Shown: piece by piece, positions 15,572 through 27,562 of the stretch | How positions within the stretch are numbered: position 1 is the stretch's first letter | Layout: every line of letters begins with the position of its first letter | From: Thiolapillus brandeum | GTDB lineage: Bacteria > Pseudomonadota > Gammaproteobacteria > Chromatiales > Chromatiaceae | Reading direction: 5' to 3' | NCBI RefSeq assembly: GCF_000828615.1 | Contig: NZ_AP012273.1 | Location: 1,612,001 to 1,676,000, forward strand | Length of the DNA stretch: 64,000 nt | Program-made: the position numbers and the translations under genes | The notes under the pieces: model-generated | Seen by the model: only the letters and a program-made list of their open reading frames with translations | Told to the model about the DNA's origin: nothing | The model's database searches: none

Positions 15572-17866
15572 GGTTCGTCCCCCCCTGTGGGCGTGGGGAA
15601 CACGGGTTGGCCAGAGGTGCCACAGATCCGATGCGCGGTTCATCCCCACGGGCGTGGGGAACACCCGGATCTACGGGCAACGGGTCCTGATACCCCCGGT
15701 TCATCCCCACGGGCGTGGGGAACACTTGGGTCAATAGGGGGGCGTCCTGCCCCCCTTCGGTTCATCCCCACGGGCGTGGGGAACACGTATCTGACGATTG
15801 GGCGGGCTATTTTCATCACGGTTCATCCCCACGGGCGTGGGGAACACGGGGCTGGTCTGTGGTGAGCGCAAGGCTGGCGCGGTTCATCCCCACGGGCGTG
15901 GGGAACACGTCCTTGAACTCGTCGATAGTCATTGCTGTTGGCGGTTCATCCCCACGGGCGTGGGGAACACGGCTGGCGTCATGCGCTTGGCAACATGCTG
16001 AACGGTTCATCCCCACGGGCGTGGGGAACACTGTTGAGGTCATCGGTCCCCGGCAGATCAATACGGTTCATCCCCACGGGCGTGGGGAACACTCGATGGC
16101 GCCCGCATTGCCCCATAACTTGAACGGTTCATCCCCACGGGCGTGGGGAACACATCGAGCCGTCGTTGGCGAAGCGGAACACGCCCGGTTCATCCCCACG
16201 GGCGTGGGGAACACCAACACCTCAAACTGCTCTTCTGGCTTTAGATCGGTTCATCCCCACGGGCGTGGGGAACACCAGCGTCCGTCGCGTTCAATGGATA
16301 GGGCGCGCGGTTCATCCCCACGGGCGTGGGGAACACGGTATGATCATAGTTACACTGAAACCACCGATGCGGTTCATCCCCACGGGCGTGGGGAACACGA
16401 GCGCCCCCAGATATCCTGCGCGATACGGACCGGTTCATCCCCACGGGCGTGGGGAACACGGCGATGGCGTCGGCCAGGTCAAACAGGTGGTCGGTTCATC
16501 CCCACGGGCGTGGGGAACACGCCGATAGGCACGCCGTTGATGGTGAGCGCGTCGGTTCATCCCCACGGGCGTGGGGAACACGGGCTGGTATTGCGCTCGG
16601 GCCATCCCCTGCGCGGTTCATCCCCACGGGCGTGGGGAACACTTCATGTGTGGATATTTGCCCGTAACAATGCTCGGTTCATCCCCACGGGCGTGGGGAA
16701 CACCTTGCAGAATCACGTTCATTGCTCTGGTCGTGCGGTTCATCCCCACGGGCGTGGGGAACACGCCTTGACATACTCCGGAGCGTCTTTGCCCGCCGGT
16801 TCATCCCCACGGGCGTGGGGAACACACTCTTGAACATACCAAGCGTAGCTAAAACTGCGGTTCATCCCCACGGGCGTGGGGAACACTTGCCCAATAGATT
16901 TTTTGGCACTCGAAAACACGGTTCATCCCCACGGGCGTGGGGAACACGACGTTGTGCCGTCGGTGATCGTCACTGATCGGCGGTTCATCCCCACGGGCGT
17001 GGGGAACACGCTGGCCCCTACCCGGGCATTCACCAGGGCGGCGGTTCATCCCCACGGGCGTGGGGAACACATTTCAGCGAATAATTGCCTGATTCGGTAA
17101 CGCGGTTCATCCCCACGGGCGTGGGGAACACGGCCTCCAGTGGGCTGGTCACCCCTGCTGCGCCGGTTCATCCCCACGGGCGTGGGGAACACGCCCGACT
17201 GATCCAACAAAAGGCATCGGGTGGCCGGTTCATCCCCACGGGCGTGGGGAACACTGCCGGTCTGCCGGTGGCACCATTTGCCCAGGGCGGTTCATCCCCA
17301 CGGGCGTGGGGAACACTTTTTCGCCAGTTGCGGTATCAGCAATAACCACGGTTCATCCCCACGGGCGTGGGGAACACCCGACCATAGTCCATTGTTACAT
17401 TTAATTGTGCGGTTCATCCCCACGGGCGTGGGGAACACCCTACCTGCGCGACCTGATCTCGCAGATAGGACGGTTCATCCCCACGGGCGTGGGGAACACC
17501 CGTGCTTTTTCAACAGTGCCTGACATAGTTCCGGTTCATCCCCACGGGCGTGGGGAACACTGACCTGCCGATTGCCAGGCGCTGTACGGCACCGGTTCAT
17601 CCCCACGGGCGTGGGGAACACTGTGTTGCTGTAAATCATTGTGATCTCCTCGCCGGTTCATCCCCACGGGCGTGGGGAACACACGTCGGTCTCCTGGATG
17701 TTGCTGATCTGCACCGGTTCATCCCCACGGGCGTGGGGAACACTGTGGCGTTTGAGCGCATTGTAGATGGCGTTGCCGGTTCATCCCCACGGGCGTGGGG
17801 AACACGAGTCGCTTCCCATGGAACCCTTTGGTCAGGGCGGTTCATCCCCACGGGCGTGGGGAACAC
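15571..17866 (-). CRISPR. Type I-E CRISPR array, 38 repeats and 37 spacers
   Basis: Thirty-seven identical 29-bp repeats begin on the plus strand at 15636 and then every 61 or 62 bp to 17838. Each reads CGGTTCATCCCCACGGGCG then TGGGGAACAC. A 38th, degenerate copy (15571-15603, about 4 bp longer) closes the low-coordinate end. Spacers are 32 bp, with 33 bp in six cases. The repeat is the type I-E palindrome, and its transcribed strand is minus: GTGTTCCCC, hairpin, then the 8-nt handle ATGAACCG. The leader is therefore at 17867-17990 next to cas2, and the degenerate repeat is the trailer end. The perfect conservation of 37 repeats suggests active or recent acquisition. One spacer (17622-17653), read on the transcribed strand, looks like a ribosome site plus start codon (GAGGAGATCACAATG). 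Confidence 0.99.
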
Positions 17867-17990
17867 ACCAATCATAATCGATTGATCTTAAAAAGAAAAA
17901 GCAGACTGAAAAATTTTACCGATTTTTAGGTTTTTTCGGCAATTCGTAAGCATCTGTTTTTATTGGGTTCCTTGTTATTAAAGAGCCATG
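17867..17990 (-). promoter_or_regulatory. CRISPR leader with promoter
   Basis: An AT-rich 124-bp interval between the first repeat and the cas2 stop. On the minus strand a sigma70-like promoter is visible: -35 TTGCCG (17937-17942), 18-bp spacer, -10 TAAAAT (17913-17918). This would start transcription about 40-45 nt before the first repeat. By analogy with other type I-E leaders it should also hold the integration-host-factor site for spacer acquisition; I could find only near matches. Confidence 0.75.
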
Positions 17991-19215: not shown

Positions 19216-19527
19216 TCAGGCTACGCGGGGTTTGACCTCTCGGCGGATGGTGGCATCCTTCTCCCGCCGCGCTTGTCGCAGGTCATAATCGGTTTGCAGA
19301 TTGAGCCAAAACTCCGCACTGGTTTCAAAATAGCGCGCCAGACGCAGTGCGGTATCGGCAGAAATGGCACGTTTGCCTTGTAGAATGATGCTGATACGGT
19401 TGGGCGGAACGTGCAGAGCGCGTGCCAGGGCGTTGGCCGACAGCCCCAGCGGTTCCATGAACTCCCGACGCAGAATATCACCCGGTGTGCTCAGGGGAAG
19501 CAGGTCGTTGTTGTCCGGTTTATTCAT
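19216..19527 (-). CDS. higA: HigA-type antitoxin, XRE family, within the cas operon
   Basis: A 103-residue antitoxin and transcriptional autorepressor of the HigA/VapI type. The helix-turn-helix is at about residues 30-62 (LSANALARALHVPPNRISII, then LQGKRAISADTALRLARYF), followed by the typical AEFWLNLQTDYDLRQAR block. It would neutralise HigB by direct binding and repress the shared promoter. It starts 9 bp after the higB stop and ends 5 bp before cas1, so it is translated from the same mRNA as the adaptation genes. It appears intact, unlike its partner. Confidence 0.93.
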   Translation of the reverse strand: MNKPDNNDLLPLSTPGDILRREFMEPLGLSANALARALHVPPNRISIILQGKRAISADTALRLARYFETSAEFWLNLQTDYDLRQARREKDATIRREVKPRVA

Positions 19528-19536
19528 GATGGCTCC

Positions 19537-19983
19537 TCAATGATAGTCGGTGATCTCCACGTCGAAGGCGTGACCTCTATCCCAGCGAAAACAAATCCGC
19601 CATTGATCGTTGATGCGGATGCTCCACTGTCCCGCCCGGTTGCCCTGGAGTGGCTCCAGGCGATTGCCGGGCGGAACTTTAACAGGATGTTGAAAAAGCC
19701 CTTCCATGGGCTTTTTCAACTCGGAAAGACAAAAATGTGATTTTGTCTTTCCTCCATTTTCAATGACTGATGGCCATTGAAAATGGCCGCACATCCTTGT
19801 GCGGCAATCAGGCTGCCGAAAAATGGTGTTTTTCAACAGCCTTTTAAGGTTTTCCAGATCGACGGCTGCATCCAGCATGCGCAGTTTGTCGAATGCCCGG
19901 AGCTGAATCTGGGGCGGGAGCTTCCTGATCCGTCTGCCCTCGAAAAGCGTGGCGGTCACCTTGTTGCGGAAACTCTTGATCAT
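19537..19983 (-). CDS. higB: HigB-type toxin carrying an in-frame 55-residue insertion
   Basis: HigB toxins are RelE/ParE-fold ribosome-dependent mRNA endonucleases of about 92 residues. The flanks match the family: MIKSFRNKVTATLFEGRRIR and KLPPQIQLRAFDKLRMLDAA at the N-terminus, VPPGNRLEPLQGNRAGQWSI and RINDQWRICFRW at the C-terminus. Between LENLK and VPPGN lie 55 extra residues, encoded by a 160-bp MITE-like element plus its 5-bp duplication, with no stop and no frameshift, giving 148 residues. ATG at 19983 fits homologues; the TTG at 19989 is less likely. Activity of the enlarged toxin is uncertain: the insertion falls before the catalytic strands, possibly in a loop. Confidence 0.88.
   Translation of the reverse strand: MIKSFRNKVTATLFEGRRIRKLPPQIQLRAFDKLRMLDAAVDLENLKRLLKNTIFRQPDCRTRMCGHFQWPSVIENGGKTKSHFCLSELKKPMEGLFQHPVKVPPGNRLEPLQGNRAGQWSIRINDQWRICFRWDRGHAFDVEITDYH
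19678..19847. mobile_element. MITE-like element, copy 1, inserted in higB
   Basis: A 160-bp element at 19683-19842 flanked by the 5-bp duplication TTTAA (19678-19682 and 19843-19847). The ends form an imperfect terminal inverted repeat, CAGGATGTTGAAAAA against AGGCTGTTGAAAAA. The interior is a chain of hairpins: GAAAAAGCCC/GGGCTTTTTC, GACAAAA/TTTTGTC, CCATTTTCAATG/CATTGAAAATGG, CCGCAC/GTGCGG, and GAAAAA/TTTTTC. It has no transposase gene, so mobilisation would need one in trans. A near-identical copy lies at 38453-38604 and a short one at 39844-39905. Confidence 0.9.
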
Positions 19984-19988
19984 CGACA

Positions 19989-20017
19989 AGGATAGTACGC
20001 GATACGTAACACGTCAA
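19989..20017 (-). promoter_or_regulatory. Predicted internal promoter and operator for higBA
   Basis: On the minus strand: -35 TTGACG (20012-20017), 17-bp spacer, -10 TATCCT (19989-19994), just upstream of the higB ATG at 19983. The transcript would be nearly leaderless. The small palindrome ACGTAACACGT (20004-20014) overlaps the -35 end and is a plausible HigA operator. It would also give cas1-cas2 an expression route independent of the cse1 promoter. Confidence 0.5.
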
Positions 20018-20018
20018 A

Positions 20019-20705
20019 TCAGGCACGCCGCACCAGCATCAACCCGCAGCCGAAGGCCTTGGCGCGCCCCATGCCCTTCATCATTTGCTCCATGAATCGG
20101 TCCGTGTCAGTCACCGTCAGCGTCCCGAAAACATCGATACTGGTGAATTGACGCAGATTGTCATCTCCCGGTTTTCTGACCTTGTGGTGGCTGTGGTTGG
20201 CGACGAGTAATTCAGAAACCTCGAAGCCGTGCTGCTCGCCTTGGCGCTGCATCCATTCCTCGGCGGCTTCCTGGTGAATCACCGATGGCGGTGGCCGGTC
20301 CGCTGGATCGGGGCAGCGGGCCTTGTACTCGTCCACCTTGGCCTCGATGATGTCGCGGCGTAACCGCCGCTTGCTGTTGTCGCCCGCCTTGCGGGTGATC
20401 ACGGCATTGGCGCGCAGCTCGAACCGCAGCTGGTCTCCGGCTTGCAGGTGTGGTTCGAAGGATTTTGTTTCGACGGTGAGATAACTGTTCCCGGCCTTCG
20501 GTTGGCGCGCGGACAACAGATAATAGAACGGCGGTTTGCCGGGTCGATCTTCGCGCCGGTAGAGAAAATCGCGCGTCTGATCCGGTGGATTGTCGAACAA
20601 ATCCCAGATCATCTGATGCTCACGGAACGGGTTGGCGACCACGCCCTTGCGGCATTGAGCGCGGATGCCTTCGGGTGTAAAGCGAATACGGCTCAGATAC
20701 ATCAT
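20019..20705 (-). CDS. cas6e: Cas6e (CasE) crRNA-processing endoribonuclease
   Basis: Cleaves the repeat hairpin to make mature crRNA and stays bound to its 3' end in the Cascade complex. The 228-residue product has the double ferredoxin-like Cas6e pattern: N-terminal MYLSRIRFTP and NPFREHQMIWDLFDNPPDQT, then FLYRRED. The C-terminal glycine-rich loop is GMGRAKAFGCGLMLVRR, and basic residues with histidines (ANHSHHKVRK) lie in the RNA-binding region. It overlaps cas5e by an ATGA junction. Downstream the operon continues after 35 bp into higB rather than directly into cas1. Confidence 0.97.
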   Translation of the reverse strand: MMYLSRIRFTPEGIRAQCRKGVVANPFREHQMIWDLFDNPPDQTRDFLYRREDRPGKPPFYYLLSARQPKAGNSYLTVETKSFEPHLQAGDQLRFELRANAVITRKAGDNSKRRLRRDIIEAKVDEYKARCPDPADRPPPSVIHQEAAEEWMQRQGEQHGFEVSELLVANHSHHKVRKPGDDNLRQFTSIDVFGTLTVTDTDRFMEQMMKGMGRAKAFGCGLMLVRRA

Positions 20706-23016: not shown

Positions 23017-24594
23017 TCAGGCGGCCAGTGCCTTCATTACCCGGCTGCCGTTGAGGTGGTGGTTCAGTCCGCCCTTGCCATCGCGCGCCTGGACCACGCG
23101 CTTGAGATCGCCGTCTTCATTCAGGCTGGACAGGGCATACTGGTCGAACAGCTCGCGGGCCTGCCGTTTGAGGATATTGGCCCAGCGTTGCAGGGCTTCG
23201 TCGATGGCCTCTGCGTTGTCACCGGCGGCGATCAATTCGTGCAGACCACCATAGAAACCGGGTTCGGTGGCTGACCAGAAATTGGCGTCGATGAAGGAAA
23301 GATCCCCCTTGGCGTCCTTGGGGCGATCGAACCAGGCGCTCTTCAAGGCCGACTTGAGCATTTTCAGGGCATCACTGGCAGCCTCGATCATCTTTTTTGC
23401 CAGTTCCACGACATCTTCACGCTGTTCCTGTTCCAGGTTGAACAACGGCATCTCAGCCTCGTACCAGCAGCGCGCCTTCATGTTGTCCATGTCGTAGCCA
23501 AAGGCCCACAGGCGTGGCTCGAAGTCCAGCTCGCTGATCCGGCGCTGGCGGTCTTCATAACGCCGCACCGACAGCGCGGGGGTCCGTGTGAGCTTGCCCT
23601 GTTGGGCAGTCACGGCCAGTCCGAGCCAGTGGCGGTAACCCAGCCCGCCCGGCTGCGCCTTGATGGACAACGGTTCCTTGTCGCCCTCGAATACATAGGG
23701 CGTAAGGGGGTGTTGCCAATGTCCGGAATAGTTGATCCCGTAGTTCCTGGTGTGAAAGCCCGTCACCAATCCGGTTGACAGCTCTCCGGTCAGGTCGCAT
23801 TGACCTTGCTCTTCCGGGAAATGCAGGCGGATACGCCGCGGCATGCACCAGTACACCTGCAGCGGATGGGCCTGTTCAGGATAGGTTTCCGTCCCCTTCT
23901 TCTCGCTGGTTCGGGTTAGGGCCAGCCAGGGAAAGATGCGCTCCGGGGAAGTGTCTTGTGTGTCACCGGCAAGCTCGGCCATTTCGTCCCGGGTGAGGAC
24001 ATTCAGCCACAGTCGCTTCCAGAGGGTATCCTCTTCGCCACCTTCCGGCGGCAGAATCAGTGTCGTCAGCGGCCCGCCGCCCCGTACCGAAACGCGGTGC
24101 CCGACGCCGCCGGAAGGCGCATTGATCTGTAGCGTGAACAGAGCAAGGATGGCGGAAATGGGTGAAAGCTGGTTGATTCGGCCCCGTTTGACGAAGTGGT
24201 CCTGATTGTCCTTCAGCGTTTTTCCACCGGGTGCGTCGATGAAAAGCGCAGCGATTTCCTTGTCTTCTCCCTCGTCCAGCGTGAGGTCCTGCATGAAGGC
24301 AGGTTCGCCTATGGGGGCGTCGATATTGAAAGCGGGCAGCCAGGGCTCGAACGCATTCTGCAAGGCTGCTGCGTCGGGCGGGCTGCTCCAGTAATGCCGC
24401 CAGGTTTTGAGGTCTTTGGGAGCAAAGGCGGTTTGCAACAGGCCGATCAACAACTGGTAGATGGCACCGCGGAAATCGGCGCGGGGGGCAACGATGTCGG
24501 TGATGTCGGAAGTGGCGATGTCATGAGGACTGATTTCCCGACGCTCACCGTCGCGGCAAGCCACTTCAATCCATGGATGTGTCAGCAGATTCAT
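23017..24594 (-). CDS. cse1: Cse1 (CasA/Cas8e) Cascade large subunit
   Basis: The large subunit that recognises the PAM and recruits Cas3. From ATG at 24594 the product is 525 residues and begins MNLLTHPWIEV, the classic Cse1 start, with GGAG 7 bp upstream. An upstream in-frame start at 24627 lacks this support. The glycine-rich region (INAPSGGVGHRVSVRGGGPL) near residue 165-185 corresponds to the L1/PAM loop zone, and the C-terminal four-helix bundle covers about 390-525. It is the first gene after the regulatory intergenic region, with its own predicted promoter at 24711-24740. Confidence 0.97.
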   Translation of the reverse strand: MNLLTHPWIEVACRDGERREISPHDIATSDITDIVAPRADFRGAIYQLLIGLLQTAFAPKDLKTWRHYWSSPPDAAALQNAFEPWLPAFNIDAPIGEPAFMQDLTLDEGEDKEIAALFIDAPGGKTLKDNQDHFVKRGRINQLSPISAILALFTLQINAPSGGVGHRVSVRGGGPLTTLILPPEGGEEDTLWKRLWLNVLTRDEMAELAGDTQDTSPERIFPWLALTRTSEKKGTETYPEQAHPLQVYWCMPRRIRLHFPEEQGQCDLTGELSTGLVTGFHTRNYGINYSGHWQHPLTPYVFEGDKEPLSIKAQPGGLGYRHWLGLAVTAQQGKLTRTPALSVRRYEDRQRRISELDFEPRLWAFGYDMDNMKARCWYEAEMPLFNLEQEQREDVVELAKKMIEAASDALKMLKSALKSAWFDRPKDAKGDLSFIDANFWSATEPGFYGGLHELIAAGDNAEAIDEALQRWANILKRQARELFDQYALSSLNEDGDLKRVVQARDGKGGLNHHLNGSRVMKALAA

Positions 24595-24689
24595 GGTGGT
24601 CTCCAGAAGTCTCAATATCGATCTCAACGCGTAGCCAGCGCCCCAATTTCAAAAAGATTCGAACAACAAAATTGCGCATTTCATGATCC

Positions 24690-24710: not shown

Positions 24711-24740
24711 ATCATAAGTTTTGGGCTGGTTGACAGTCAA
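24711..24740 (-). promoter_or_regulatory. Predicted cse1 operon promoter
   Basis: On the minus strand: -35 TTGACT (24735-24740), 18-bp spacer, -10 TATGAT (24711-24716), both 5 of 6 to consensus. It gives a leader of about 110 nt before the cse1 ATG. The -35 lies in the palindrome TTGACAGTCAA shared with a divergent promoter. Confidence 0.7.
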
Positions 24741-24758
24741 GGCATTATTCTCCAAAAT
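24730..24758 (+). promoter_or_regulatory. Predicted divergent promoter for an antisense CRISPR-like RNA
   Basis: On the plus strand: -35 TTGACA (24730-24735, perfect), 17-bp spacer, -10 CAAAAT (24753-24758, 4 of 6). The start would be near 24765, just before the first degenerate repeat, so the RNA runs toward the 3' end of cas3 on the opposite strand. Confidence 0.6.
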
Positions 24759-24771
24759 AGCCAGCACCTCA

Positions 24772-24848
24772 GCTTTCCCTACGTTGTGGGGATGAACCTT
24801 TTTGAGCTGGGTGCGAAATAGGCTCCCCACCATTGTGGGGCTGATCAG
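24772..24848 (+). ncRNA. Candidate CreR/CreA-like RNA: two degenerate repeats around a short spacer
   Basis: The first degenerate repeat (24772-24799) matches 22 of 29 positions of the transcribed array repeat with one gap, including an unbroken GTGGGGATGAACC, so the Cas6e cut site and 5' handle are kept except for the last, PAM-derived base. Its stem is CCCTAC/GTGGGG with a G-U pair. The second (24820-24848) matches 19 of 29 and keeps CCCCAC/GTGGGG; it overlaps the cas3 stop. About 20 nt lie between them (TTTTGAGCTGGGTGCGAAAT). Both sit in plus orientation, opposite to the array and cas genes. The class assignment is inference by analogy with CRISPR-like regulatory RNAs in other type I loci. 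Confidence 0.5.
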
Positions 24849-27562
24849 GGAGGCGGCGCATCGCCGTCTCTCTGAATTTCCAGGCCTGCGTCCGCCGTAT
24901 AACAAAGATTGAGGGCGCTACCGATCTTGTCTCTGGCCTTAGTGATCCCCCCCTCATTCGTCGGCCTCAGCGGCACGATAAAGCTCTCATCATCGAACCG
25001 CTTCTCTTGTTCCCGTAGGGTGTCCAGCGCCGCCCGCAAAGCAGCATCCTCGATCGGCGCCAGTTCTCGCAGCTGCCCGGCGCGAATCCGCAGGCTGGAG
25101 CGATCCCAGCGGTAAGGGCCTTCGTCGGCCCAGGGTTGCAGTTTTCCGTTTTCCCAGCGGGCCAGATAGAGGGTCTGGCTCTCGTCGCCCAGGCGGGTGG
25201 CAATGCGGGCGTCTTCGTCCCACAGGGGGCCGCCACGATAACCAGACTCCAGCCGCAGGCTGGCGAATCGGCCGGCGTCTCGCTGGCTCAGGGTCTCGCC
25301 CTCGACGGCCAGCGAGGCGTCGGCCAGTCCCGGTGGAATATCGCCCACCTCGTTGTAAACAAATTCCAACAGATCCCGGGCGTCTTCCGGCATGCGCCAG
25401 CCGCCCTTTTCCTGCAACAGGCGGGCAGTGCGCCACAAAATCAGGGTGTCGGGATAGACGTAATGCGCTTTTGGGAAGAATGCCTTGTACCAGTCCGGCT
25501 GGGGGACGTCGATGGGCTCCGGCGTCAACAGATCCAGCACCGGCTGACCGCACTTGCCCCGGGCGTGCCGGTGCAGGCGCCCGGCGCGCTGGATCAGCAG
25601 GTCGATGGGTGCCACGTCGGAAATCATGCGGTCAAAGTCAAGATCGAGGGATTGTTCCACGACCTGGGTGGCAATGAGCACTTGGCCCCGACGTTCGTTG
25701 TCCGTCGAATCCTTGCCAAACCGGTTCAACATTGCCTGCTCGATGCGTAGCCGGTCGCAGAGGGCGAAGCGGCTGTGGAACAGGTGCAGGCTTTCTTTCT
25801 TTAGCCATTCGGCATTGCGCAGGGCTTGCCAGGCTGAGCGGGCATCCGCGACCGTGTTGCGTATCCAACAGATGCATTCGCCGGCCTGCACCGCGGCGCG
25901 AATCTCCTCCAGAATCGCTGCTTCTTCGTGATACAGCCTTATCTGCACCTGCCGCGCCACGCTGGCGCGAGTGTGTACGGGTTGTTCGGCCAGCAGCGCC
26001 TCGCGCGAGGCATGCGTCAGCAAGGGGTAAGCCATGGCTTCCGGTTCAATTGAGTTGTTTGCCTGGAAAGCGACGATGAGTTGTCCGCGTTGTTTTTTTG
26101 TCAGGGTGGCCGAAAGCAGGATGACGCTGCCGCCAAGGGCAGCGTGGAAGCTGATCAGCCGCTTCAGGGGTTCGGAAGTATAAGCGTCGTAGGCATGCAC
26201 CTCATCGAGAATCAGGATCTTGTTTTCCAGCCCCAGCAGGCGCAGGGACTGGTGCCGGGCGGGCATCACCGCCAGCAGGGCCTGGTCGATGGTGCCGATA
26301 CCCACATCGGCCAGCAGCGCCTTTTTGCGGTTGTCGGCCAGCCAGCGGTTGCACTGGGCGACGATGCTTTCCTCTTCTCGGCCATAGCGCGGATCGTCCA
26401 CCTGCAGTGCCAGCAGGGATTGCCGGAAGGCCTCGGACAGGTGGCGGGCGCCGTGACTGAGGATCAGGCTGGGCGGTTGATCGTCCGACTCATAGAGCCG
26501 CCGGTACACCCCGGCCATGCGTTCATACATGGCATTGGCCGTGGCCATGGTGGGCAGCCCGATATAGAGGCCCTCCCCCTGACCGGCGGCCATCAGGCGC
26601 GCGGCCAGGATCAGCGCCGCCTCGGTCTTGCCGGCGCCGGTGACGTCTTCGAGGATGAAGAGCTGGGGTTCCGGCTCGATGGGCAGTTCGAGGCAAGCCT
26701 GCTGCAAGGGCGTGGGTTGTTTGAGATAGTCGAACAGGTCACCGGGATCGCGCAGGATTCGAACCGGTGGGGGAAGAATTCCGGCATGACGGACAGCGTT
26801 CACCGCCGCAGGCAGGGCATGCCTTTCCCAGTAGTCCCGCAGTGGCGTCGGCGTATCGATAAACGCGAAATATTCCCGGTTCGAGCCCAGCCAGTCGGCC
26901 AGCACGGCGATGCCTGCGAGCAGCCAGCTGGCCTCACGTTGACGGTGGACGAATTCGGCATCATCAAAATGTTGCTTTAGCGCATCCAGGTCCGGGCCGA
27001 TGAGTTCCAGCCATTGTCGGCTGAAGTCGAGCGCGGCCTGTTGGTCGAACTCCCGGAAATGGCGTTTGAGTCGCTCGCTTTTGCCCGGCATGTCGGGTGG
27101 CCAGCCGTGATGGCCGGTGACCGCCGCCATCCAGTAGTCCATGGCATCTTCGATGAAGTCCTGGAATGCTTCGTCGAATAGTTCGAAGCACAGGAATTCC
27201 CGCCACAGCAGCCAGCCGAGGGCGTCATGGCGCAGGCTGTAATTCTTGTTGCGGGTCTTTTCATCAGGCCACAGCGCGAGACGAAGATCTTCGCGCAGTT
27301 GCTGGAAACTTTCGGCGAATTTTCCCAGGTCGTGAAGGCCTAGGAGGAAGAGAACCCAAACCCGAGTCTGATCCTCCGGCAGTCCCATCAATCGAGACAG
27401 TCTGCGCAGCAATTCCGGGCGCTGCTCAAACAAAACCGCTGCCACCGCCGCCACATCCAGGGAATGATACGCCAGCAGGTGAAAACCCGCCTCACCAGCC
27501 TCTCGGGAACCGGCTTTTCCCCAGTATCGAAAAAAATTTGGATTTGTGCGGTGTTCTTTCAT
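24845..27562 (-). CDS. cas3: Cas3 helicase-nuclease, type I-E
   Basis: Recruited by Cascade to unwind and degrade target DNA. The 905-residue product has an N-terminal HD nuclease domain with H33 and D36 (AYHSLD), the HD pair H77-D78 (GLHDLGK) and later histidines (VTGHHGWPP, 149-156). The superfamily 2 helicase has Walker A DVTGAGKT at 306-313, DEVH at 453-456, LSATLTK, and motif VI QRAGRLHRH. A C-terminal accessory domain follows. ATG at 27562 follows a small hairpin that may hide its ribosome site. It is first in the cas gene order and is separated from cse1 by a 250-bp regulatory region. Between pyrF and cas3 lies only 53 bp. Confidence 0.98.
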   Translation of the reverse strand: MKEHRTNPNFFRYWGKAGSREAGEAGFHLLAYHSLDVAAVAAVLFEQRPELLRRLSRLMGLPEDQTRVWVLFLLGLHDLGKFAESFQQLREDLRLALWPDEKTRNKNYSLRHDALGWLLWREFLCFELFDEAFQDFIEDAMDYWMAAVTGHHGWPPDMPGKSERLKRHFREFDQQAALDFSRQWLELIGPDLDALKQHFDDAEFVHRQREASWLLAGIAVLADWLGSNREYFAFIDTPTPLRDYWERHALPAAVNAVRHAGILPPPVRILRDPGDLFDYLKQPTPLQQACLELPIEPEPQLFILEDVTGAGKTEAALILAARLMAAGQGEGLYIGLPTMATANAMYERMAGVYRRLYESDDQPPSLILSHGARHLSEAFRQSLLALQVDDPRYGREEESIVAQCNRWLADNRKKALLADVGIGTIDQALLAVMPARHQSLRLLGLENKILILDEVHAYDAYTSEPLKRLISFHAALGGSVILLSATLTKKQRGQLIVAFQANNSIEPEAMAYPLLTHASREALLAEQPVHTRASVARQVQIRLYHEEAAILEEIRAAVQAGECICWIRNTVADARSAWQALRNAEWLKKESLHLFHSRFALCDRLRIEQAMLNRFGKDSTDNERRGQVLIATQVVEQSLDLDFDRMISDVAPIDLLIQRAGRLHRHARGKCGQPVLDLLTPEPIDVPQPDWYKAFFPKAHYVYPDTLILWRTARLLQEKGGWRMPEDARDLLEFVYNEVGDIPPGLADASLAVEGETLSQRDAGRFASLRLESGYRGGPLWDEDARIATRLGDESQTLYLARWENGKLQPWADEGPYRWDRSSLRIRAGQLRELAPIEDAALRAALDTLREQEKRFDDESFIVPLRPTNEGGITKARDKIGSALNLCYTADAGLEIQRDGDAPPP

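Follow-up and report, generated by a model that had tools for sequence, protein, structure and literature searches.

The 64,000-nt stretch of the Thiolapillus brandeum genome analysed here (contig NZ_AP012273.1 of assembly GCF_000828615.1, positions 1,612,001 to 1,676,000; hereafter the window) carries a complete type I-E CRISPR system on its minus strand, comprising cas3, cse1, cse2, cas7, cas5, cas6e, a HigBA-like pair, cas1, cas2 and an array. In the gap between cas3 and cse1, on the plus strand and antisense to the cas genes, lies an element with the make-up of a CRISPR-mimic RNA of the CreA/CreR kind: a guide outside the array, flanked by a pair of diverged repeats that retain the hairpin and the Cas6 handle. 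The genes and the array that bear on this element are:

24845-27562, minus strand: cas3 (Cas3_HD, Cas3-like_C_2), upstream of the CRISPR-mimic element and outside the control of the targeted promoter
23017-24594, minus strand: cse1 (cas8e; PF09481, E 1.3e-118), the first Cascade gene, downstream of the targeted promoter
20019-20705, minus strand: cas6e (PF08798), the predicted enzyme for processing the CRISPR-mimic RNA
15575-17885, minus strand: canonical CRISPR array with a 61-62-nt period, the source of the reference repeat

Read along the array transcript, the repeat is GTGTTCCCCACGCCCGTGGGGATGAACCG; the genome holds 37 intact copies of it and no other near-intact ones. The element itself consists of four parts:

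24730-24758, plus strand: sigma-70-like promoter of the CRISPR-mimic RNA, with -35 TTGACA (24730-24735), a 17-bp spacer and -10 CAAAAT (24753-24758), 10/12 to consensus
24771-24799, plus strand: degenerate repeat 1 (psi-R1), with its stem at 24776-24792, a predicted Cas6e cut at 24791/24792 and the handle AUGAACCU at 24792-24799
24800-24819, plus strand: guide of 20 nt, TTTTGAGCTGGGTGCGAAAT, between psi-R1 and psi-R2
24820-24848, plus strand: degenerate repeat 2 (psi-R2), with its stem at 24825-24840, which supplies the 3' hairpin; it covers the last 4 nt of cas3

An initial annotation of this DNA had described a perfect -35 and a four-of-six -10 leading into two degenerate type I-E repeats, each with a hairpin and about 20 nt apart, and all of these features are present, the spacing being 20 nt. 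Transcription is expected to start at ~24765, and the mature RNA is predicted to span 24792-24840 (49 nt). psi-R1 retains GTGGGGATGAACC, as had been stated, and its handle (ATGAACCT) matches at seven of eight bases. Folded alone, psi-R1 and psi-R2 each adopt the expected type I-E stem (-9.2 and -9.9 kcal/mol respectively). Production of the RNA, its processing by Cas6e and its binding to Cascade are predictions made from these features of the sequence.

Over the full 29 nt, identity to the array repeat is 18/29 for psi-R1 and 19/29 for psi-R2, close to what chance would give; several unrelated sites elsewhere in the window reach 18-19/29 as well. Since repeat identity alone lies within the range of chance, stronger evidence was required. 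Outside the array, GTGGGG-N-TGA occurs within the window only at psi-R1 and psi-R2, and a stem-plus-handle pattern run over the whole genome found only the array and psi-R2 (the pattern cannot match psi-R1, the loop of which is one base shorter). The fold of the long RNA as a whole was not unusually stable (z -1.28), and only the psi-R1 hairpin stood out (z -2.35).

Cleavage by Cas6e after GTGGGG would leave the handle AUGAACCU, and the guide would therefore begin at 24800. Read from there, the guide matches a target 80 nt away, in a promoter that leads through a small open reading frame (ORF) towards cse1:

24716-24732, plus strand: target, with the protospacer-adjacent motif (PAM) AAG at 24716-24718 and the protospacer at 24719-24732, identical to the guide at positions 1-5, 7-11, 13 and 14
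24711-24740, minus strand: promoter of the peptide-cse1 operon, with -35 TTGACT (24740-24735), an 18-bp spacer and -10 TATGAT (24716-24711), 10/12 to consensus
24566-24679, minus strand: unannotated small ORF of 37 amino acids, MRNFVVRIFLKLGRWLRVEIDIETSGDHHESADTSMD, from ATG at 24679 to TGA at 24566, overlapping the cse1 start by 29 nt; a putative CreT-like toxin

On the plus strand at 24716, AAG is followed by TTTTGGGCTGGTTG, and guide and target disagree only at positions 6 and 12. AAG is the classic type I-E PAM, and type I-E Cascade flips positions 6 and 12 out of the hybrid; within positions 1-14, all 12 of the 12 positions that Cascade reads agree. When the gap was shuffled 5000 times (first-order), no shuffle (0/5000) gave 12 matching positions beside an AAG, the highest count being 10, and the string of AAG plus target, AAGTTTTGNGCTGGNTG, occurs once in the 3.15-Mb genome. 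It is on this match, at 12/12 read positions and beside an AAG PAM, that we judge the element to be beyond chance. Thus the guide has partial, PAM-proximal complementarity to a local promoter with a proper PAM.

The target occupies the spacer between the -35 and -10 boxes of the cse1 promoter, and its PAM touches the -10. From its expected start at ~24704, the operon would run through the 37-amino-acid ORF, the first ORF after that start, into cse1, so that the targeted promoter is that of the cas operon, as in type I-E CreR. A promoter scan of the gap found only two promoters, that of the RNA and the minus-strand one, each at 10/12, where shuffles lead one to expect 0.3. The palindrome TTGACAGTCAA (24730-24740) contains the overlap of the divergent -35 boxes, so that binding of a single complex should obstruct both promoters. 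The initial annotation had further suggested that the RNA tunes cas expression, which agrees with a target inside the cse1 promoter and calls for one refinement: the same promoter also drives the small ORF, and a toxin role of the CreTA type is equally plausible.

Recurrence was assessed in 145 distinct cse1 upstream regions, a sample gathered by similarity to the window cse1 and not a census. The first scan was blind to the PAM and called for perfect agreement at guide positions 1-5 and 7-11, with a handle-like motif and a 5-bp stem before the guide site. It returned 39 guide-target pairs in the 145 gaps, 32 of them preceded by AAG, with the next PAMs at two each; the reversed-target control gave one pair and none with AAG. 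Many of the pairs with other PAMs turned out to be palindromes or dispersed repeats and were rejected as guides. The second scan used 1400 nt upstream of cse1 and found a guide-target pair in 51/145 loci. In these loci the guides differ and the targets match them; the guide is antisense to cse1 in 51/51, and a second hairpin stands downstream of it in 51/51. The repeats are mostly 20-22 or 31-33 nt apart, with one weak call in L020 and another in L125. The guide lengths form two groups 12 nt apart, equal to two six-base Cas7 segments, with none near 26 nt.

Position statistics were taken over 33 guide clusters, since pairs such as L013/L129 and L128/L130 are closely related; positions past 11 had played no part in choosing the guide-target pairs. 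Guide and target agreed at positions 13-17 in 28, 21, 21, 18 and 19 of the 33 clusters respectively (P 1e-9 to 9e-4), while positions 12 (7/33) and 18 (8/33) were at background, as was everything beyond 18. Such a periodicity of six bases, extending over ~17 nt, is characteristic of pairing by Cascade. Cas3 needs a full R-loop, for which pairing over ~17 nt is too short, and this argues for repression and not cleavage. Agreement at position 6 was rarer than composition predicts (4/33 clusters, P 0.026), a suggestive hint that the flipped-base mismatch may be favoured, too weak to claim selection.

Six close relatives (L015, L016, L017, L019, L020 and L024) retain the two-repeat layout with different guides, each of which matches its own target, in L024 at 9/10 seed positions. 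Conservation of the hairpin and handle in related loci, which had been proposed as a check, was looked for and found in all six despite their different guides; GTGGGGATGAACC is unchanged in 5/6, L024 having GAGGGGATGAACC. By eye, the same promoter layout is present in L015, L016, L017, L019 and L020, and the position of the RNA promoter is retained in L015, L017, L019 and L020. The element is thus conserved with guide and target covarying. L017 departs from its sister loci: the PAM of its target is AAA, and its promoter region lies between the arms of an inverted repeat (AGCATGATAAA / TTTATCATGCT). In L014 (Cse1 85 percent identical), L018, L023 and G009, cas3 abuts cse1, and promoter, peptide and guide are all absent; these close relatives represent empty sites, so the cassette is optional. 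The central proposal of the initial annotation, a CreR/CreA-like RNA guiding Cascade to its own operon, had been made before a target was located and gains support from the PAM-flanked target in the cse1 core promoter and from the recurrence in 51/145 loci; repression itself is what we infer from them.

The 37-amino-acid peptide is conserved in L016, L017, L019 and L020 and more distantly in L024, L027 and L100, and it is under purifying selection. Between the window peptide and those of L017, L019 and L020, the differences per synonymous site (pS) were 0.81-0.88 and per non-synonymous site (pN) 0.26-0.28; among these three loci, the values per site were 0.30-0.47 for synonymous and 0.04-0.07 for non-synonymous differences (L016 was left out of the comparisons). 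The shifted frames of the ORF showed no synonymous bias. A profile of the peptide, run on 204 genomes of the order, gave three convincing matches, all immediately ahead of cse1 (G000, G150 and G003); a further match, in G214, was marginal and had an internal stop. A conserved non-cas gene thus stands behind the targeted promoter, as in CreTA. The ORF does not have the character of an archaeal-type RNA toxin with a rare-codon mini-ORF, for it has 37 codons, is selected at the amino-acid level and carries no tandem rare codons after its start.

Many other element-bearing loci have a different small peptide directly behind the target. The commonest belong to a family whose members have 33-44 amino acids and a single hydrophobic helix; MDQIKGFVSVVNSFSPAPSAVIFLALVLAIIVALKM (L062) and MDLITKLTDAVNRLSPSSSALVALALIFGILAIVKLA (L085) are examples. 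A strongly hydrophobic small ORF lies behind the target in 19/51 loci, compared with 0/51 on the opposite strand and 4/93 among loci without a detected element (Fisher 6e-7 and 5e-7); among the loci first scored as lacking the element, L069 and L101 do carry one and L054 has a hairpin like that of the second repeat. No Pfam or NCBIfam family fitted the small peptides, and a search with a profile of the hydrophobic family brought up weak partial matches elsewhere but no convincing copy.

Several of these loci deserve separate mention. A near-identical hydrophobic peptide of 36 amino acids (..NSFSPAPxAVIxLALVLAIIxALKM) follows the target in L046, L047, L048, L043, L036, L041 and L062, which belong to Methylomonas, Methylobacter and relatives, and in some of the loci with this peptide cse1 lies several hundred bases further on. 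In L036, a short ORF that by eye resembles a HicB antitoxin (MKLKVIVHEAEEGGYWAEVPSITGCVTQGDTFDELL..) stands at -173 upstream of cse1, between the hydrophobic peptide and cse1. Another conserved small ORF, soluble in character (..IFRRYRKDKSGQLLDARKYGLKAWPIKI..), lies between target and cse1 in L075, L089, L090 and L093.

CreR, a cas-regulating RNA, was reportedly first described by Liu et al. in 2023. Autorepression by CreR is reported for types I-B, I-E and V-A (PMC13131331; PMC12737573). Like CreR, the present RNA mimics a crRNA (CRISPR RNA), is complementary to a cas promoter to a limited extent and is expected to repress its own effector genes; it differs in that the repressed operon starts with a selected peptide, whereas CreR as the review describes it is not coupled to a toxin gene. 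The type I-E CreTA of Citrobacter rodentium (Basta et al. 2025, PMC12055562) lies in the cas3-casA gap and has a 96-bp toxin ORF that is toxic only if translated, as established by expression and frame mutants; Cascade represses this toxin with an opposite-strand crRNA-like RNA, and Cas3 is dispensable (PMC12055562). The likeness to our locus is one of layout, with the same gap, an opposite-strand crRNA-like RNA, a promoter target beside a type I-E PAM and a small ORF towards casA/cse1. Our locus differs in its AAG PAM (ATG in C. rodentium), in the position of the target between the -35 and -10 boxes (at the UP element in C. rodentium) and in the overlap of the ORF with cse1.

The Acinetobacter type I-F CreTA, in the cas3-csy1 gap, has a 20-nt guide that is unpaired at positions 6, 11 and 18 (PMC10097628). 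It shares with our locus a gap beside cas3, two degenerate repeats, a 20-nt guide, the mismatch at 6, a reach of 17 nt and a divergent small ORF behind the target, but its CreT, with a mini-ORF of 10 codons, acts as an RNA, and the site that the guide matches there is downstream of the promoter. The type I-B CreTA of Haloarcula (PMC8501985, PMC9458426) resembles our locus in its two-repeat RNA, there an antitoxin, with an 8-nt handle, and in Cascade-mediated repression by partial complementarity, which we would expect here as well; it differs in its tRNA-sequestering RNA toxin, its archaeal host and its 11-bp seed.

Taken together, we favour with moderate confidence a reading in which a single operon for the peptide and Cascade is held down by the CreA/CreR-type RNA, with autorepression and probably also addiction as the outcome. 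A short RNA starting at ~24765 would be cut by Cas6e at psi-R1 and psi-R2 and loaded, with its 20-nt guide, into type I-E Cascade, and the complex would bind 24719-24735 beside the AAG PAM, within the core promoter of the operon starting at ~24704. Because the match extends no further than position 14 (17 across the family as a whole), Cas3 should not engage, and binding would repress without cutting; because the bound complex covers the RNA's own -35, the RNA should also dampen itself. The repressed operon would begin with the 37-amino-acid peptide and continue straight on into cse1-cse2-cas7-cas5-cas6e, and since both share one operon, one RNA would give Cascade feedback control. Free Cascade (few crRNAs, much protein) would tighten the repression, and many crRNAs or an anti-CRISPR would loosen it, raising Cascade and the peptide together. 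Should the peptide be a toxin of the CreT type, as suggested by the C. rodentium type I-E precedent, the arrangement would amount to addiction to Cascade together with an anti-CRISPR alarm: loss of Cascade would be punished and the self-poison released. On the evidence, the regulatory half of this reading is very probable, and for the toxin half the balance tips slightly in favour.

Several observations weigh against it. The window peptide is amphipathic and basic with no clear membrane helix (KD 0.96; helix moment 0.60; net charge +4, residues 1-20), so that its position and the analogy with the precedent are what speak for its putative toxicity. The frame of the peptide is shifted near the start in L015, where guide and target are intact, and in G003 a stop comes two codons after the ATG; either these are errors of assembly, or they hint that the RNA persists where no functional peptide is made. 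In several further loci, the target is just 61-112 nt from cse1 and no peptide is obvious. The doubtful frames of L015 and G003, which keep the layout, and the loci with so short a distance to cse1 would suit an RNA of the CreR kind that autorepresses the Cascade operon only; the 37-amino-acid ORF would then encode a leader peptide that does no harm and through which translation is coupled to cse1. Such an account also draws on the target within the cse1 promoter, on the overlap of the ORF with the cse1 start and on the type I-E CreR autorepression reported in PMC13131331. Selection on the amino acids of the peptide speaks against it, as does the presence of unrelated small hydrophobic peptides at the same place in many element-bearing loci and almost never without the element. 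In Methylomonas (L046-L048), moreover, the target lies ~80 nt before the peptide gene and serves that gene, the end of which is ~460 nt from the cse1 start. We therefore hold a role confined to Cascade autorepression to be rather unlikely, yet a serious contender.

Conversely, the peptide gene could be an addiction toxin and nothing more, with cse1 expressed mainly from elsewhere and any control of cas genes incidental. Both the C. rodentium type I-E system (PMC12055562) and the Acinetobacter type I-F system with its 20-nt guide (PMC10097628) offer models for this, and small hydrophobic ORFs are associated with the element; the overlap of the ORF with cse1 means, however, that the targeted promoter necessarily reads into Cascade, which makes this explanation improbable. 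A functionless, decayed remnant of a two-repeat array would account for the low full-length identity of the repeats, but not for the guide-target match, the covariation across relatives or the conservation of both promoters, and is very improbable. If the repeats were chance hairpins, the promoter could be a stray one or belong to an ordinary cas3 antisense transcript. The unremarkable stability of the long RNA would sit well with this reading, but the same three grounds, and the handle and hairpin kept in six relatives with different guides, make it extremely improbable.

Elsewhere in the cas locus, between cas6e and cas1 (window 19216-19989, minus strand), lies a second candidate addiction pair: a HigA antitoxin (E 7e-33) with an ORF that weakly resembles YoeB/RelE toxins.

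The kind of RNA to which the element belongs (CreA/CreR) is already known, as is a published type I-E CreTA in the same gap. What is new is this member with its target and peptide, together with the uncatalogued peptide families, and there is an indication that autorepression and addiction share one promoter. The element contributes a well-defined CRISPR-mimic regulator, with target, promoter and first gene identified, from a bacterium outside the pathogen models, and the survey suggests that about a third of the examined type I-E loci carry the device. We tentatively put forward, at somewhat less than even confidence, that the first gene of the Cascade operon in a large fraction of type I-E systems encodes a small, mostly hydrophobic or amphipathic peptide from one of several unrelated, uncatalogued families, and that one antisense CRISPR-mimic RNA, with a guide of one of two lengths (20 and 32, two Cas7 segments apart), represses the shared promoter, so that autoregulation and addiction would be a single circuit. 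If this is true, any loss or inhibition of Cascade would raise both the toxin and the replacement Cascade. The survey also yields a concrete list of candidate peptide toxins overlooked by current annotation, and it becomes testable whether autorepression and addiction form one system and how anti-CRISPRs would trigger it.
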